From NCBI GenBank assembly GCA_029264355.1, contig JARIBW010000028.1, forward strand, positions 1 to 64,000: 64,000 nucleotides of DNA, in the 5' to 3' direction. Shown here piece by piece: positions 6,237-21,249 of this stretch. Each line of letters begins with the position of its first letter. The stretch's first letter is position 1. Under the pieces are notes generated by a model. The model was given only the letters and a program-made list of their open reading frames with translations. It searched no databases and was not told the DNA's origin. Both the position numbers and the translations under genes were made by a program. Source of the stretch: Collinsella sp. Lineage in GTDB: Bacteria > Actinomycetota > Coriobacteriia > Coriobacteriales > Coriobacteriaceae.

Positions 6237-7487
6237 CTACGCGTACAGACCGAACAGCTCGATATCGGCCTCGCCGAAAAGCCCGTTGACGTAGGACGTC
6301 CACTTGGCGCTCGCGCCCTGGGACTCGACCATGTACTGCTGATATGCGACGGCATAGGCCTTCTGGGCCTGGGCATACGTCGCGGAATCGGGGGTGATCT
6401 CCTCGCCCGCGAACGCAGTTGCGTAGGCGCCGTCGGGCTTTGCCCAGGTACCGGCCTCTGCATCCCATTCCTTACCGGCCAGATCGATGATGTAGGCGGC
6501 GTACTCGGCCTTGGCCTCGTTCTCATCTCCGCTCTCGGGCTCGGCGGGCGCCTTGGGCATGGCGGGGGCATCTTCCATCACGCTCTGATACAGCTTCTGG
6601 ATGGTGCCCTGCTCGCGCACGATCTGCTTTGCCTGGTCCTCGCTCACGCCGTACTGGCCGGCGATGGCGGAGAAGTCCGAGGTGCCCAGGGAGGCCTCGG
6701 CAGAGGAGGAAAGCTCCTCATCGCTCAGCTCGATGCCCTGCTTGGACGCTTCCTCCAGCAGGACGCGATTGCGCACATAGGCGAGGATCGAATCGGCGGA
6801 AGGGGCGGGGTAATTGCCGTCCTCGTCCTTTACGCTGTCGAGGCTGTACTGGCTCTCGATGGCCTCACGCGCGCTGATCTTGTGCGAGGCGCCCTTGAAC
6901 TTCCAAGTTGCGACCGTCGCATCGAGTTCGCTTTCGGCAAAGACGGGGGCGCTCACGCCCTTGGATCCAAAACCGCCGGAGCCGAGGAAATACCCGGCGA
7001 TTCCGGCGACGATCACGGCGGCCAGCGCACCGACGATGAAGTACTTGTGCTTGCCGGTCATGGCGCGCTGCATGCGGGTCTTCTTGGGACGCGCCGCGGG
7101 GCGCGGCTTCGCGGCAGATGCGGCAGAGGAGTCTGCAGGAGCGTCCGCCTCGAGCTCTTCGACGGCGTCATCGGAGTCGGCGGCGTCACCGTCATCGAAG
7201 TCGGCGGCGTCACCGTCACCGGTCCCCTCCTGCGCGGCGTCCTCGGCGCCAGCGCCCTCGGCGTCCTCAGGGGCCTCGGCATCCAACAGCTCAGGATCGG
7301 CCTCGAGTTCGCGCTCGGCCTCGGCCGCCGCCGTCTTGCCGGAGATGTCCTCGGCGGTCAGGCCCTCGTGGATCTCCACGCGCTCAACCCCGTCGTCGCC
7401 GTTCGGTCCCTCGCCGCGACCGACGACCTCGATCCCGTCGATGTACTCGTTATCCTCGGAATCGTCCTTCTTCATGATCAGACCCAT
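6237..7487 (-). CDS. Membrane-anchored SurA_N-like protein
   Basis: 416-residue protein. An acidic, Ala/Glu/Asp-rich cytoplasmic region (about 1-130, with runs of GDGDAADFDDGDAAD type) precedes one membrane span (FIVGALAAVIVAGIAGYFLG), then an extracytoplasmic part. There, AREAIESQYSLDSVKDEDG and SILAYVRNRVLLEEASKQGI resemble the SurA N-terminal chaperone helices. No parvulin or FKBP isomerase domain follows, so it may be a chaperone-like anchor rather than a PPIase. ATG 7487 is preferred to an upstream GTG because GGGAG sits at the right distance. No terminator was recognised after it. Confidence 0.7.
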   Translation of the reverse strand: MGLIMKKDDSEDNEYIDGIEVVGRGEGPNGDDGVERVEIHEGLTAEDISGKTAAAEAERELEADPELLDAEAPEDAEGAGAEDAAQEGTGDGDAADFDDGDAADSDDAVEELEADAPADSSAASAAKPRPAARPKKTRMQRAMTGKHKYFIVGALAAVIVAGIAGYFLGSGGFGSKGVSAPVFAESELDATVATWKFKGASHKISAREAIESQYSLDSVKDEDGNYPAPSADSILAYVRNRVLLEEASKQGIELSDEELSSSAEASLGTSDFSAIAGQYGVSEDQAKQIVREQGTIQKLYQSVMEDAPAMPKAPAEPESGDENEAKAEYAAYIIDLAGKEWDAEAGTWAKPDGAYATAFAGEEITPDSATYAQAQKAYAVAYQQYMVESQGASAKWTSYVNGLFGEADIELFGLYA

Positions 7488-7543
7488 ACGGTCCGCTCCC
7501 TTCACCTTGCCTGACGGATTATCGCGTCAAGCCGATACGATAC

Positions 7544-8715: not shown

Positions 8716-9411
8716 TTACTCCTCGTCTTCGTCCTCGGCATCGCTCTTCTTGGCGCGCACCTTCTTCTGCGGGTTGTCGAGCTTGAAGCGCTTGACCAGC
8801 GAGTCGTAGATCTCGCCCGAACGGACGCGCAGATAGCTGCCCTTGCCGTTCTCGGCGTCGAACTGCAGGCGGCCGGCCAACTCGGCGGCGACGGAGCCCG
8901 AGATCTGGCCGTGCGCGAAGGAGAGGAGCAACGCGAGCATGTCGCGGTACTCGAGATCGCCGTGGTAGCACTGGATGGCCTCGTCGATGATGGGCCACAC
9001 CTTCTCGGAGCGACGGCGCTCCGTGGCGCCCCACACCACGAGGAAGCGGAAGGCGGACAAACGCAGCGGAGCCGAGATCTCATCGAACAGGGCGGCCTCG
9101 GCCCCCTCGTATGCGGCGCCGCACTCCTTGGCGTGCCCGGGGACGAGCAGCGTCAACGCATCGAGCACCTCCCAGCGAGTCTGGGCCTCCGGACGATACA
9201 GGGCGTCCACCAGCTGCTCGATGAAGGGGACCAGCAGATCGGACTCACGCTCGGCGAGCAGGTGCACCACGCGTCCGGCGAGCTGGCGCGTGCGGCGGCT
9301 CGAACTGGACAGGTCCTCGATGAGGGCGGACAGGGCGTCGGCGTTGTTCTCGACGCTCGCGAGGCGGGCGGCCTCTTCGGAGGAAAGCTCGACGAGATTC
9401 TCTTGTGCCAT
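8716..9411 (-). CDS. HEAT-repeat protein
   Basis: 231-residue, all-helical soluble protein. Repeated helix pairs such as RTRQLAGRVVHLLAERESD and AQTRWEVLDALTLLVPG match HEAT/armadillo-type repeats. The C-terminus is a charged tail (KKVRAKKSDAEDEDEE). No catalytic motif is seen. It is co-transcribed with and directly upstream of isocitrate dehydrogenase, which could mean a scaffold or regulator role; that is inference from position only. Confidence 0.7.
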   Translation of the reverse strand: MAQENLVELSSEEAARLASVENNADALSALIEDLSSSSRRTRQLAGRVVHLLAERESDLLVPFIEQLVDALYRPEAQTRWEVLDALTLLVPGHAKECGAAYEGAEAALFDEISAPLRLSAFRFLVVWGATERRRSEKVWPIIDEAIQCYHGDLEYRDMLALLLSFAHGQISGSVAAELAGRLQFDAENGKGSYLRVRSGEIYDSLVKRFKLDNPQKKVRAKKSDAEDEDEE

Positions 9412-10041: not shown

Positions 10042-11136
10042 TTACCCCTCGTGATGATGACCGCAGTGGCACTCGTGGTCCTCGCCGTGGCCGTGACCGC
10101 CGCAGCACTCATGGTCCTCGCCGTGATCGTGACCGCAGGCGCACTCGTGACCGTCATGGTCGTGGCCATGGTCGTGGTCGCAACCGCAATCGCACTCATC
10201 GTCATGCCCATGCTGGGCCGTGTAGAGCGACCAATCCAGCCCGGCGGCGACGGCGTCGGCCTCCTCCTGGTACAGCAAGGTGATGGCCTGGGTGCCCATA
10301 CGGCCACCGCCGATGGCGTCGAGCATGTCGTACAGGGTGAACGCGGTGTCGGCGCCAGGCAGGGCGAGCTCCTTCTCCTCGGCGACCGTGAGCGCCAGGC
10401 CCAGGTCCTTGAGAAAATGCTCGACCAAAAAGCCGGGCTTGTAGTCGCCGTCGATCGCCTTGGGGGCGAGCTGCCGCATGGCGCCGGAGTTGCCGGTGCC
10501 GGAGCAGATCATCTCGCGCACTTGCTCGAGGTCGAGGTCGTTTTGCTGGGCGAAGGAGAGGGCGTCGGCCATGCCGACCATGGCGCTCGCCAGGGCGACC
10601 TGGTTGGAGAGCTTGGCGGCCTGGCCCTTGCCGGCCCCGCCGAAGCAGCAGATCTTGGAGGTAAAGGTCTCGAGCACCTCGCGGACAGGCTCGATATCGC
10701 GCTCGGTGGCGCCGATGATGGCCGTGAGGGTGCCGGCGATGGCGCCGGACTCGCCGCCCGTCACGGGACAGTCGAAGGCGTGCTTGCCGCACACCTCGGC
10801 GGCGCCGGCGATGTCACGGGCGAGCTCGGGGGCGCTGGTGGTGAGGTCGATGAGGTAGGCGCCGTCCTTGGCGGATGCCAGCAGGCCCTCGCCCGCCAGG
10901 TAGACCTCCTCCACATCCGTGGGGAACCCGACCATGGTGAAAACCACGTCGGCGTCCTTGGCGGCCTCGGCGACGGAGCCGGCCCAGGTGGCGCCGCGCT
11001 CGATGAGATCGGCGGCCTTTGCCTTGGTACGGCTGTAGACGGTGAGCTCGTAGCCCGCGTCCATGATGTGGCCGGCGATGGGCGCGCCCATGATGCCGGT
11101 GCCGATGAAGGCGATCTTCAGGTTCTTATCTTCCAT
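10042..11136 (-). CDS. Beta-hydroxyacid dehydrogenase with His/Cys-rich C-terminal tail
   Basis: 364 residues. Residues 1-308 form an NAD(P)-dependent enzyme of the 3-hydroxyisobutyrate / tartronate-semialdehyde reductase family: Rossmann motif IAFIGTGIMGAPIAG, substrate loop DCPVTGGESGAIAGTL, and GKGQAAKLSNQ with the catalytic Lys. The last 56 residues (309-364) are almost only His, Cys, Asp, Glu and Gly (17 His, 9 Cys), with repeated HGED HEC and CGHDHG units, as in nickel- or zinc-storing tails. Family members normally stop near residue 300. The ATG at 11136 has AAGGAG nine bases upstream. Substrate unknown. Confidence 0.88.
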   Translation of the reverse strand: MEDKNLKIAFIGTGIMGAPIAGHIMDAGYELTVYSRTKAKAADLIERGATWAGSVAEAAKDADVVFTMVGFPTDVEEVYLAGEGLLASAKDGAYLIDLTTSAPELARDIAGAAEVCGKHAFDCPVTGGESGAIAGTLTAIIGATERDIEPVREVLETFTSKICCFGGAGKGQAAKLSNQVALASAMVGMADALSFAQQNDLDLEQVREMICSGTGNSGAMRQLAPKAIDGDYKPGFLVEHFLKDLGLALTVAEEKELALPGADTAFTLYDMLDAIGGGRMGTQAITLLYQEEADAVAAGLDWSLYTAQHGHDDECDCGCDHDHGHDHDGHECACGHDHGEDHECCGGHGHGEDHECHCGHHHEG

Positions 11137-11226
11137 ATGCAACGCTCCTTTTGACGTATGCTCGACGATTGACCGACGGTGGCGGGCGCCGCCGTCGGCG
11201 ATATGGCGGATCGGAGCCGATGCTCG

Positions 11227-12183
11227 CTATTCCCCGCGGACGCGGTTGGCGATGCGATCGGTCAGGGAGATCTTCTCCGAACGGTTCTTACCCCAGAAGA
11301 TGAGGGCGACCATACCCGGCCCGACGTGCGAGCCGATCGTGGGGCCCACCGAGCCGCGCAGGATGGTGAGGTCCGCACAGCCGGGCTCCTTGCGCACGGC
11401 CGCCTCGAGCCAATCGGCGTCCTTCTCGGCGTCGGAGGAGACGATGGCGAGCGGCAGGGTCGGGTCGAACTCGTAGTTCTCGGCGAACGACTTGATGAGC
11501 GCCTTGAGCGCCTTCTTGCGGCCGCGGTTCACGCCGATGAGCGAAAGGGCCCCGGCCAGGTCGAAGGACAGCTCGGGCTTGATATCGAGCTTGGAGGACA
11601 GCGAGGCCGCCGCAGGCGGGATTCGTCCGCCGGCGGAAAGCGCGTCGAGGCTGTCCAGGGTGAAGTAGCCGTGGATGTAGGATTTGGCCTCGTTGGCCCA
11701 TTCGGCCAACTGGCGCGCGTTCAAGCCCGCCGCGCGCTGCCGCACGGCCTCCATGGCGAGCAACTCGCCGCACGCGCAGGGCAAGGCATTGTCCACCACG
11801 TAGAGCTCGAACTCGGGGTGGGCGGCGCGGACCTGCTCGGCCGCATGGCAGGCGGAGTTGTAGCTTGAGGAGAGCGCGCTCGTGAAGCACAGGTACACCG
11901 TGGGCGTGCCCTCTTCGGCGCACTTGGTGAAGAACTCGAGGTACTGGCCGATCGAGATGGCCGAAGTCGACGCCTTGGAGCCCTCGCGCAACTTGTCGTA
12001 GAACTTCGAGGGCGTGATGGTGCTCCAGATGTCATCCGTGTACTCGACGCCATCCAGGATGTAGGGGAATCCCAAAATGTCCACTTCGAGCGTGGCCGCG
12101 ATCTCGGGGGTGAGATCGGCACAGGTGTCGATGACGATGCGGCACATGCTCGGGACCTCGTACGAGGCGGTGGCGTTGCCCAT
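11227..12183 (-). CDS. DegV family fatty-acid-binding protein
   Basis: 318 residues. Typical DegV features: CRIVIDTCADLTPEIA near the N-terminus, TSAISIGQYLEFF, YLCFTSALSSSYNSA (fatty-acid pocket), LDSLDALSAGGRIPPAAASL, and a C-terminal VGPTIGSHVGPGMVALIFWG. DegV/FakB proteins hold a fatty acid and in some bacteria present it to kinase FakA; no FakA is seen here, so the pathway role is inferred from family. The start is the ATG at 12183; a Met at residue 13 is a possible shorter start. Confidence 0.9.
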   Translation of the reverse strand: MGNATASYEVPSMCRIVIDTCADLTPEIAATLEVDILGFPYILDGVEYTDDIWSTITPSKFYDKLREGSKASTSAISIGQYLEFFTKCAEEGTPTVYLCFTSALSSSYNSACHAAEQVRAAHPEFELYVVDNALPCACGELLAMEAVRQRAAGLNARQLAEWANEAKSYIHGYFTLDSLDALSAGGRIPPAAASLSSKLDIKPELSFDLAGALSLIGVNRGRKKALKALIKSFAENYEFDPTLPLAIVSSDAEKDADWLEAAVRKEPGCADLTILRGSVGPTIGSHVGPGMVALIFWGKNRSEKISLTDRIANRVRGE

Positions 12184-18699: not shown

Positions 18700-21249
18700 C
18701 TACGCCTTCTCGGTCGTGCTCTTCTTGGCGGCGGCCTTCTTGGCCGGGGCCTTCTTGGCGGGCGTCTTCTTGGCCGGGGCCTTCTTGGCGGCGGCCTTGC
18801 CGCGGGCGGGCTTCTTCTCCTTGCCGGGGCAATCCATGTTCACGCAGATGCGCCACGGGCCGCGGGCGGTCTCGACCACCACGACGGGCGCTCCGCAGTG
18901 CTCGCAGACCTCCCCGGTGGCGGAGAGCTTGCCGCGGGCGGGCAGCGGATAGCTCACACCGCAGTCGTCATAGTTCGTGCAGCGGATGAAGCGCTTGCCG
19001 CTCTTCTCGCTCTTGTGCGCGATCAAATCGCCGTGACGGCCCGCCTCGGCGCACACGGAGCATTCGCCCACCTTGAGGTCGGGCTCGTAATTGGTGGGGC
19101 ACTTGGGGTTCACGCACTGCTCGTACGCCTTCTGGCGGAACGGCTGGCACTTGATGCGCGGCGCCCCGCACTCGGGACACACGGCGGCCTCGCCCTCGAG
19201 CGGGCTCACCTTCACGCCGGAGGGCACGGGGTAGGTCACATCGCAATCCGGCCAACCCATACAGCCGATGAAGCTGCCGCGCGTCTTGGCGCTCGTCTTC
19301 ATGACCAGGTCTTTGCCACACTTGGGACACGCGCCCACGCGTGCATCGGCGGTGACCGCGTCCGAGATGGCCTCGCCCAGATCGTCCTTGTGCTCGATGA
19401 GCGCATCGAGCATGCCGGCGAGCAGCGCGCGGGAATGGTCCACGACGTGCTCCTGCGTGTCGGCGCCCTCGGCCACCTTGGTCATGTCGGCATCGAGCTC
19501 GGCGGTCATGTCCGGCGTGGTGACGCGCGGGGCGAACTCCGAGAGCGCGTCGATGATGGCGATGCCGAGCTGACTCGGCTCGATGGGGTCGTTCTTGAGG
19601 TAGCGCACCGCGTAAAGGCGCTCGATGATGCTCGCACGCGTGGACTTGGTGCCCAAACCGCGCTTCTCCATCTCCTGGACGAGCTTGCCCTGGCTGTACC
19701 GCGCCGGGGGCTCGGTCTGCTTGGCCTCGAGCTTGATGTCGCGCACGTCGATGACGTCGCCCTCTTCCAGGGCGGGCAGCTGTTCGTCGCGCTTGAGGCC
19801 ATACGGGTAGGCCTCGCGGAAGCCGGCCTCCACCAGCACGTCCCCACTGGCGGCGAACGGCTCGCCGGCGACATCGATGGACAGCTTGGTGTTCTCGATG
19901 GTGGCCGGGCCCATGAGCGTCGCCAGGAAGCGGCGGGCGATCAGGTTGTAGAGCTTGAGCTGGCCGCCGTCGAGGGTGGCGGGGTCCCCCTGGCCGGTGG
20001 GATGGATCGGCGGGTGGTCGGTGGTCTCCACCTTGCCGCGCGTGGGCGTGAGCGGGCCGGCGAGAACCTTCTTGCACACGGGCGCGAGCGCGGGGGTGCC
20101 AAAGGCCAGGCCCTTCACGATGCCCTCGATGTCCAGCGTCTTGGGATACACCGTGTTGTCGACACGGGGATAGGAGATGAAGCCGCTCATATAGAGGGAC
20201 TCGGCGATGCGCATGGTGCGCGCGGGGCTGATGCCCTCGGCGGCCGCGGCCGCCTGCAGCGCGGTGGTATTGAACGGCACCGGGGGCTGCTGCTTGCGGC
20301 TGCGCTTTGCCACGGCGGTGACGGTGCCGGTGTTCGCCCCCTCGACATGCGAATACGCCGTCTCGGCAGCCTCTTTGTCCGTGAAGCGGGCCGTGGTGTG
20401 CGCGATCTTGAACTCCTGATCGGACGCCTCGCCCATTCCGCGGATCTGCCAGTAGTCCTCGGGCACGAAGGCCATGCGCTCGCGCTCACGCTCGACCACC
20501 AGGGCGAGCGTGGGGGTCTGCACGCGGCCGGCCGAACGCACGTTGCCAAAGCCGCCGAACTTGGCGAGCGTGAGGTAACGCGTGAGGACGGCGCCCCAGA
20601 TGAGGTCGATGTACTGGCGGGACTCGCCGGCGTCGGCCAAGTCCTGGTCGAGTTCGACCAAGTTGGCGAAAGCCTCGGTGACCTCGCCCTTGATGAGGGC
20701 GGAATAGCGGGCGCGACGGGCGGGCAGCTCGGGGGCGACCTCTCGAATCATGTTGAGGGCGTCGGAGCCGATGAGCTCACCCTCGCGGTCGAAGTCCGTG
20801 GCGATGATGACCTCGTCGGCCTTTTTGGCGAGGTTCTTGAGAACGCGGATGATCTCCTTCTCCGCGGGGTTCTTGATGATCGGGGACCACGTGAGGTACG
20901 GCAGGCTCTCGACCTTCCAACCCTTGATGTTGATACCGTTGGCGAGGAAGGGCTTGCGCTTGGTGTCGTACGGCGGGCGCGCGAGACCGTCGGGTACGCC
21001 GGCGGGTAACACCTCACCGTCCTCGGTCAGACCGTACCAACCCATCTTCTTGTCGAAAAGGATCTCGTCGGGAAAATCCGGCGCGAGGATGTGACCGGCC
21101 AGGCCCATCGAGACCCAGTCCTCACCGTCAACCTTGAACCGGTAGACCTGCGTGTTATAGACCTTGTCGTTCTTCGGCGCGCCGGCGTCGGCCAGCAGCT
21201 GCGCGATCTTCTGCGCAGCGATGTTCTTCTCTGCAACGACGAGCTTCAC
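18700..21249 (-). CDS. topA: DNA topoisomerase I (type IA, archaeal-like)
   Basis: 849 residues. Toprim domain with [12 protein letters not shown] (150-161); active-site Tyr at 360 in [15 protein letters not shown], a wording typical of archaeal topoisomerase I, where bacterial TopA has an YMRTDS-type motif. Four zinc-ribbon segments follow ([29 protein letters not shown]). The C-terminus is a Lys/Ala/Pro repeat ([19 protein letters not shown]), a DNA-binding tail seen in actinobacterial topoisomerases. It relaxes negative supercoils. It heads the topA-tmk-holB-ricT transcript. Confidence 0.93.

Follow-up and report, generated by a model that had tools for sequence, protein, structure and literature searches.

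A histidine- and cysteine-rich, metal-binding-like tail on a DegV-linked beta-hydroxyacid dehydrogenase homologue of Collinsella and other Coriobacteriia

Metal-binding tails of the SlyD kind are already known. The tail of SlyD is unstructured, varies in length among relatives and binds up to seven Ni(II) ions, and Ni(II) reversibly inhibits the prolyl isomerase activity of SlyD (PMC7055735). His-rich stretches proposed for metal storage are also described in rhizobial HypB (PMC7055735) and in Helicobacter Hpn. Mycobacterial GroEL1 is a paralogue of a common protein; its C-terminus is His-rich, and it is predicted to act in metal homeostasis and no longer in the original activity (PMC10170517). 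In the open-licence papers covered, no description of a tail-bearing beta-hydroxyacid dehydrogenase (beta-HAD) was found.

The tail considered here was encountered in a window of 64,000 nucleotides (the whole stretch of DNA analysed) from a Collinsella genome of 1,555,646 bases in 53 contigs, which is 97.6% complete. Collinsella and its relatives are common in the human and animal gut. Like the tail of Escherichia coli SlyD, the Collinsella tail is C-terminal and rich in His, Cys, Asp, Glu and Gly, and the string CCGGHGH is common to both; when tested as a SlyD-type tail it agrees in make-up and in predicted disorder, and the comparison with SlyD drawn in the earlier note is upheld as regards make-up. 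The carriers differ, however, the SlyD tail being borne by an FKBP prolyl isomerase and the Collinsella tail by a beta-HAD; Pfam and NCBIfam give no match to the FKBP domain of SlyD in the window protein, and the link of SlyD to hydrogenase maturation has no counterpart in the window's genome. The resemblance, which consists of make-up and one short string, may be convergent. GroEL1 shares the plan of a common protein's paralogue with a His-rich C-terminus, but this C-terminus is shorter, free of cysteine in the published model peptides, and part of a different protein family (PMC10170517). Rhizobial HypB and Helicobacter Hpn are tied to nickel enzymes, whereas the tested nickel markers are absent from the window's genome; nor did Pfam or NCBIfam find a CobW/HypB/UreG GTPase or UreE domain in the window protein.

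The coordinates of the gene, its parts and its neighbours are given in Table 1. The reading frame is open from a TTG at 11142, and the ATG at 11134-11136 is the likely start of a protein of 364 residues. Both beta-HAD domains score above the curated cut-offs of Pfam, PF03446 over residues 9-166 (152.7 bits; cut-off 21) and PF14833 over residues 171-288 (91.6 bits; cut-off 30), which places the protein in the family and bears out the claim of a complete enzyme domain before the tail. The GxGxxG motif, the PVTGG substrate motif and the catalytic Lys and Asn are present in the window protein and in the rows of its own family and of a second one (f1 and f2 below), and K175, N178, K243 and D244 are all present in the window protein's core. 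The protein reaches the cut-off of no NCBIfam equivalog; those tested for tartronate semialdehyde reductase and 3-hydroxyisobutyrate dehydrogenase fall short (TIGR01505, 203.9 of the 340.75 bits needed; TIGR01692, 182.2 of 291.6), and therefore the substrate of the Collinsella beta-HAD is not assignable. The nearest solved relative of the core is the L-serine 3-dehydrogenase of Pyrobaculum calidifontis (38% identity; PDB 3w6u, 3w6z and 5xvh), and 5xvh and 3w6z are also the nearest folds to the modelled core. The likeness extends to the lysine mutated in 3w6z (K170M), but the match stops before the Collinsella tail, and the substrate of the Collinsella enzyme may differ.

Table 1. Features of the tail-bearing gene and its surroundings, in window coordinates
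Feature	Coordinates	Strand	Basis
Beta-hydroxyacid dehydrogenase family protein with His/Cys-rich C-terminal tail	10042..11136	minus	364 aa, ATG start, stop 10042-10044
Folded core, residues 1-303: Rossmann domain, all-helical domain and GLDWS anchor	10228..11136	minus	Pfam, invariant columns, model
GLDWS anchor, residues 299-303, directly before the tail	10228..10242	minus	invariant columns
His/Cys-rich tail, residues 309-364	10045..10212	minus	composition, selection test, model disorder
36-bp tandem repeat, 2.6 copies, 82% matches, codes for a 12-residue tail unit	10058..10149		repeat search
AGGAG, probable ribosome-binding site of the ATG start	11145..11149	minus	read from sequence
DegV family protein, immediately upstream, most conserved neighbour	11227..12183	minus	Pfam/NCBIfam, locus comparison
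148-aa small membrane protein, starts 6 bp past the tail stop codon	9589..10035	minus	no Pfam family
231-aa protein, conserved neighbour, no Pfam or NCBIfam match	8716..9411	minus	locus comparison

Translation of the minus strand gives a tail of 56 residues with 17 His, 9 Cys, 12 Gly, 10 Asp, 7 Glu and one Ala (Asp and Glu together 17), in exact agreement with the 56 residues, 17 His and 9 Cys counted earlier. The short DNA repeats that had been reported were likewise recovered, as the 36-bp unit of Table 1 and a 12-bp unit at 10155-10177, within the tail DNA. The ligands are arranged in CxC, CC, HxH and HEC patterns. Among the 419 stop-to-stop frames of at least 80 codons in the window, the best 40-residue stretch of the tail frame contains 20 His+Cys, and that of the runner-up 11. 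In the AlphaFold model the pLDDT exceeds 90 at most positions as far as about residue 300, whereas confidence is low over residues 311-364; the tail is thus predicted to be disordered. Searched alone, the tail matches no Pfam family and no PDB sequence at E 10, low-complexity bias limiting both searches, and under the same limitation they yielded no match to a known bacterial metallothionein family. The candidate explanation of the tail as a homologue of another family was rejected on these empty searches. Two further repeat-bearing frames were seen in the window, both on the minus strand: one at 18700-21249, which by eye resembles DNA topoisomerase I and has a Lys/Ala/Pro-rich C-terminal repeat from a tandem repeat at 18721-18798, and one at 6237-7505, whose product of 422 aa contains an acidic repeat, DAADFDDGDAADSDD, encoded by 24-bp tandem units at 7166-7218, and has no NCBIfam match.

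The tandem repeat, the variable length and the repeated loss of the tail are what would be expected from neutral growth of a functionless low-complexity repeat in G+C-rich DNA. This explanation was confronted with the substitutions in 22 genomes of the genus that have one tail length (171 nt after GLDWS), which form 231 pairs that are not independent of one another. In these sequences pN is 0.0158 and pS is 0.2839 in the tail (pN/pS = 0.056), compared with 0.0093 and 0.184 in the core of the same genomes (pN/pS = 0.051). All nine Cys columns of the tail are invariant, and its substitutions are mostly among Asp, Glu and Gly, with His to Arg at two positions. The tail is therefore under purifying selection as strong as that on the enzyme, and the contrast to neutrality is large. 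Such a low ratio amid abundant synonymous change indicates that the tail is a protein-level trait and not a by-product of a DNA repeat, and its make-up is moreover retained across two families. Neutral repeat growth is accordingly disfavoured by the selection test and is regarded as very improbable indeed.

The gene is present in all 43 genomes of the genus. In 42 of them at least eight His+Cys follow the GLDWS anchor (the lowest of the 42 has 16), and G028 is the sole genome in which the tail is lost. Examples among named records that bear the tail are C. intestinalis DSM 13280 (L032), C. stercoris DSM 13279 (L033, a complete chromosome) and C. tanakaei YIT 12063 (L034). Among the rows listed, the stretch behind the anchor measures 46 to 102 residues in tail-bearing genomes of the genus, from which it follows that the make-up has been retained while the repeat number drifts. 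The earlier note had raised the prospect that the tail would be lost in close relatives through assembly differences; comparison of orthologues with and without the tail gave no sign of this, the tail being real in independent assemblies. The same note had presented the fusion as a singular one. That framing does not hold, as the tail is neither confined to one genome nor recent, but is typical of the gene in the genus and in much of the order.

Across the order, the full protein has a match in 332 of 395 genomes, and tails were read for 231 genomes, a rich tail being defined as at least eight His+Cys after the anchor. Rich tails occur in 64 of 65 rows of f1 (the window's family), 90 of 120 of f2, 11 of 32 of f4 (in which the tail of one row, G294, is unclear) and 5 of 12 in other families. 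By named records f1 and f2 correspond to Collinsella/Enorma and Thermophilibacter/Olsenella/Atopobium, and f4, judging by taxonomy, would be Eggerthellaceae. Among the relatives outside the class, none of 14 loci (L095, L096 and L099-L110, L100 being cut by a contig end) has a His/Cys-rich tail. Some tails within the class are of unusual form: those of G174, G178 and G182 have eight plain His, in some f2 lineages (L091, L092, L290, L291 and L292) the tail is a natural run of eight His, a built-in 'His-tag', and that of L311 (G043) is Cys-rich and His-poor, with 2 His and 9 Cys among many Asp, Thr and Ser, like a small metallothionein.

The motif HEC-x-(C/G)-G-H is found in 40 of the 43 genomes of the genus, against none for the reversed control. 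It has four matches away from the gene (in G012, G013, G015 and G028); the locus of the one in G028 (L122) was inspected and no tail-like gene was seen. The HxHxH pattern has many scattered matches in four genomes, and 9 of 30 such loci inspected have a frame of at least 100 codons in which some stretch of 30 residues contains 10 or more His+Cys; four of these nine are one CobW gene of G025 matched repeatedly, and the others are L208, L215, L219, L221 and L225. Within the scope of these inspected loci, the possibility that the tail is a mobile module on other genes was rejected.

The surroundings of the gene are rigid. Within flanks of 3 kb or less, 65 of 68 loci (L031-L098) have a DegV homologue and 65 the 231-aa protein; a ribosome hibernation factor is encoded at 62 of them and a solute-binding protein at 60, while the small membrane protein was detected at 33 and an isocitrate/isopropylmalate dehydrogenase at 19. 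None of these conserved neighbours is a metal-uptake, efflux or regulator gene. Among the more distant loci, a same-strand DegV gene immediately precedes the beta-HAD gene in 40 of 42 for f2, 11 of 12 for other families and 30 of 32 for f4, one of the f4 misses (L261) being scored as such by the ORF-start rule though DegV is on the same strand. The two f2 loci that lack DegV (G054 and G056) also lack the anchor and the tail, and the secondary beta-HAD copies in G095 and G085 (L187 and L188) have no such tail. The tail therefore marks one positional orthologue, the DegV-linked copy. A membrane protein similar to that of the window follows the gene in L032, L070 and L170 too, but many relatives lack one. 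At L151 of G102, whose genome is one contig, the frame continues without a stop from the enzyme and its tail through the membrane protein, as a single ORF of 516 codons; in its relative G101 (L142) a TAG stands at the junction. This single natural fusion hints at a working partnership of the beta-HAD and the membrane protein.

Such an arrangement could also be explained by a flexible acidic/His tail that serves interaction or solubility and has no metal role, for example in docking to DegV, to the small membrane protein or to another partner. Besides the constancy of DegV and the frame shared with the membrane protein in G102, the tails of f4 and of the other families may be cited for it; these are mainly acidic, and 23 of 31 rows of the former and 8 of 12 of the latter end in (F/Y)(S/G)xN, which has more the look of a peptide motif than of a metal site. 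A merely acidic linker, however, would not need the invariant cysteines and the CxCGH/CCGGH wording seen in f1 and f2, and the poly-His tails of other lineages, such as the three with eight His, keep ligands too. An interaction tail devoid of metal is therefore thought improbable.

The earlier note read the protein as a redox enzyme coupled to metal storage, and f4 suggests that this is too narrow. In the alignment used for residue conservation, rows without the anchor (G054, G056 and G223) were left out. Residues G12, G14, G17, K175, N178, K243 and D244 are retained in 65 of 65 rows of f1 and in 119-120 of 120 of f2. Among the 31 aligned f4 rows, in contrast, G14, R36, G127, G128, N178, K243 and D244 occur in none, K175 occurs in seven, and a gap spans residues 31-50 in all; in three f4 proteins the PF03446 match begins only at profile position 37 or 43. 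Anchor residues G299 and W302 are retained even in tail-less and catalytically degenerate relatives, including all 31 f4 rows, although their complete presence is partly built in by the choice of rows. The f4 tails have HxH in 28 of 31 rows and are enriched relative to the core in His (10.2% vs 1.1%) and Cys (3.8% vs 1.7%). The apparent pseudoenzymes of f4, DegV-linked and with acidic HxH tails, comprise L179, L184, L185, L186 and L235-L263. The f4 orthologue thus appears to be dead as an enzyme, yet retains the DegV neighbour, the anchor and a putative ligand-bearing tail. Since a thinner tail is kept where the NAD-binding motif and most catalytic residues are gone, the tail is not simply an accessory of catalysis.

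Two eukaryotic proteins, N-PAC (PDB 2uyy) and mt-SAF21 (PDB 7pua), share the beta-HAD fold with the window protein by structure and sequence matches, unlike the Collinsella protein though they are in origin. N-PAC is reportedly a catalytically inactive member of the fold, as the f4 relatives appear to be. We know of no His/Cys tail on either.

These observations also bear on a metal- or redox-controlled switch, in which metal on the tail, or oxidation of the tail, would alter how active the beta-HAD is or how it oligomerises, and a redox step would thereby come under the control of metal status. The inhibition of SlyD by Ni(II) (PMC7055735) is a precedent, and tail and intact catalytic residues mostly co-occur in f1 and f2 (K175 in 65/65 and 119/120). 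A switch would not be expected, however, to persist as the HxH tail of f4 does beside a degenerate core, or the enzyme to persist in those f2 rows whose tail is depleted or missing (fewer than eight His+Cys in 30 of 120). The switch is accordingly held to be unlikely.

As for the metal, a store of nickel that stands in for SlyD or a His-rich HypB in the maturation of lactate racemase or [NiFe]-hydrogenase would fit the resemblance to the SlyD tail and the occurrence of HypB in many tail-bearing genomes of the order. Nickel markers were assessed as HypB over 395 genomes, LarC and CbiM over 57 chosen genomes, and CbiM over 395. The window's genome has no HypB, LarC or CbiM match, and the same holds for G017 and G025, which bear the tail. 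All 31 genomes of one genus (G126-G156) are tail-bearing, and a HypB match is listed for none of them. Association was examined in 185 of 187 f1/f2 genomes, a score above 250 and the anchor being required (G054 and G056 were dropped), and there the tail is not associated with HypB (Fisher p 0.30). CbiM is found in 23 of 31 tail-poor and 45 of 154 tail-rich genomes (Fisher p 7e-6), that is, it goes with tail poverty in the raw table, but not after allowing for phylogeny, the median p being 0.625 on 11 independent pairs on starred branches. The candidate link of tail loss to nickel/cobalt import was for this reason treated as phylogeny.

Nickel storage was rejected for the window's organism on the absence of HypB, LarC and CbiM. 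The earlier idea of nickel storage in the manner of SlyD or HypB is weakened by this absence and by the HypB-less genomes G126-G156. As a general purpose of the tail, nickel for hydrogenase or lactate racemase is unlikely, and replacement of SlyD or HypB by a nickel store of this kind is considered very unlikely. Zinc remains as the most plausible metal, solely because Cys and His occur together in the tail and the nickel reading has been weakened, a preference that derives mainly from the absence of nickel markers from one genome of the completeness given above. Three other His-rich stretches of the genus were inspected and belong to an ArsP_2 heavy-metal exporter, a Ni_insertion protein and a CobW protein. 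The first of these (L230, in C50 of the window's own genome, within the first 3.2 kb; minus strand, 942-2075) is a putative exporter of the ArsP_2 type (PF11449) with a large His/Cys-rich loop containing CCGGHDH, in wording as in the beta-HAD tail. The occurrence of such stretches on metal proteins fits metal handling by the tail.

Taken with its purifying selection, its breadth, its restriction to the DegV-linked copy, its predicted disorder and its persistence in f4, the make-up of the tail makes it somewhat probable that this disordered appendage binds metal at several sites and serves the coriobacterial cytoplasm as a buffer or donor of a divalent metal, zinc being the likeliest. Metal binding, zinc as the metal, and buffering or delivery as the purpose are all inferred here. 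The tail would hang behind the GLDWS anchor of the DegV-linked beta-HAD paralogue, and its 26 His/Cys ligands, together with Asp and Glu, could by simple arithmetic accommodate some six ions if each took four ligands. With several such tails on one oligomer, a small reservoir would result, as proposed for SlyD and mycobacterial GroEL1, and the neighbouring small membrane protein might tether the buffering tail. Several observations weigh against such a buffer: the conserved neighbours include no gene of metal traffic or its regulation; the tail has been lost or reduced many times, its state having changed at least 15 times on the gene tree (built on the rows used for association), from which it is seen to be dispensable in some hosts; and the f4 tails are thinner, a minority of them being rich.

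A further, speculative extension of the buffer, itself rather doubtful, is that the DegV-linked beta-HAD serves first of all as a scaffold for handling metal and not as a metabolic enzyme. Selection would act on the tail and the GLDW anchor, while catalysis would be optional and abandoned in the Eggerthellaceae-like family; the scaffold, DegV and the small membrane protein would jointly make up a metal buffer close to the membrane in gut actinobacteria. PacL1, a membrane-bound zinc chaperone (PMC9374683), would be a parallel.

The tail is real, selected, lineage-typical and metal-binding-like, and it would most likely work by buffering or delivering metal much as SlyD (PMC7055735) and GroEL1 (PMC10170517) are proposed to do. 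The f4 branch may be regarded as a natural experiment in which the enzyme decays and the appendage stays. On immobilised metal columns, tail-bearing proteins may be carried along with other material and then be taken wrongly for dehydrogenases that depend on metal. If the reading of the tail is true, a gene whose annotation says no more than dehydrogenase would carry a conserved metal reservoir, and a gap in the economy of zinc or another metal in these bacteria would be filled.
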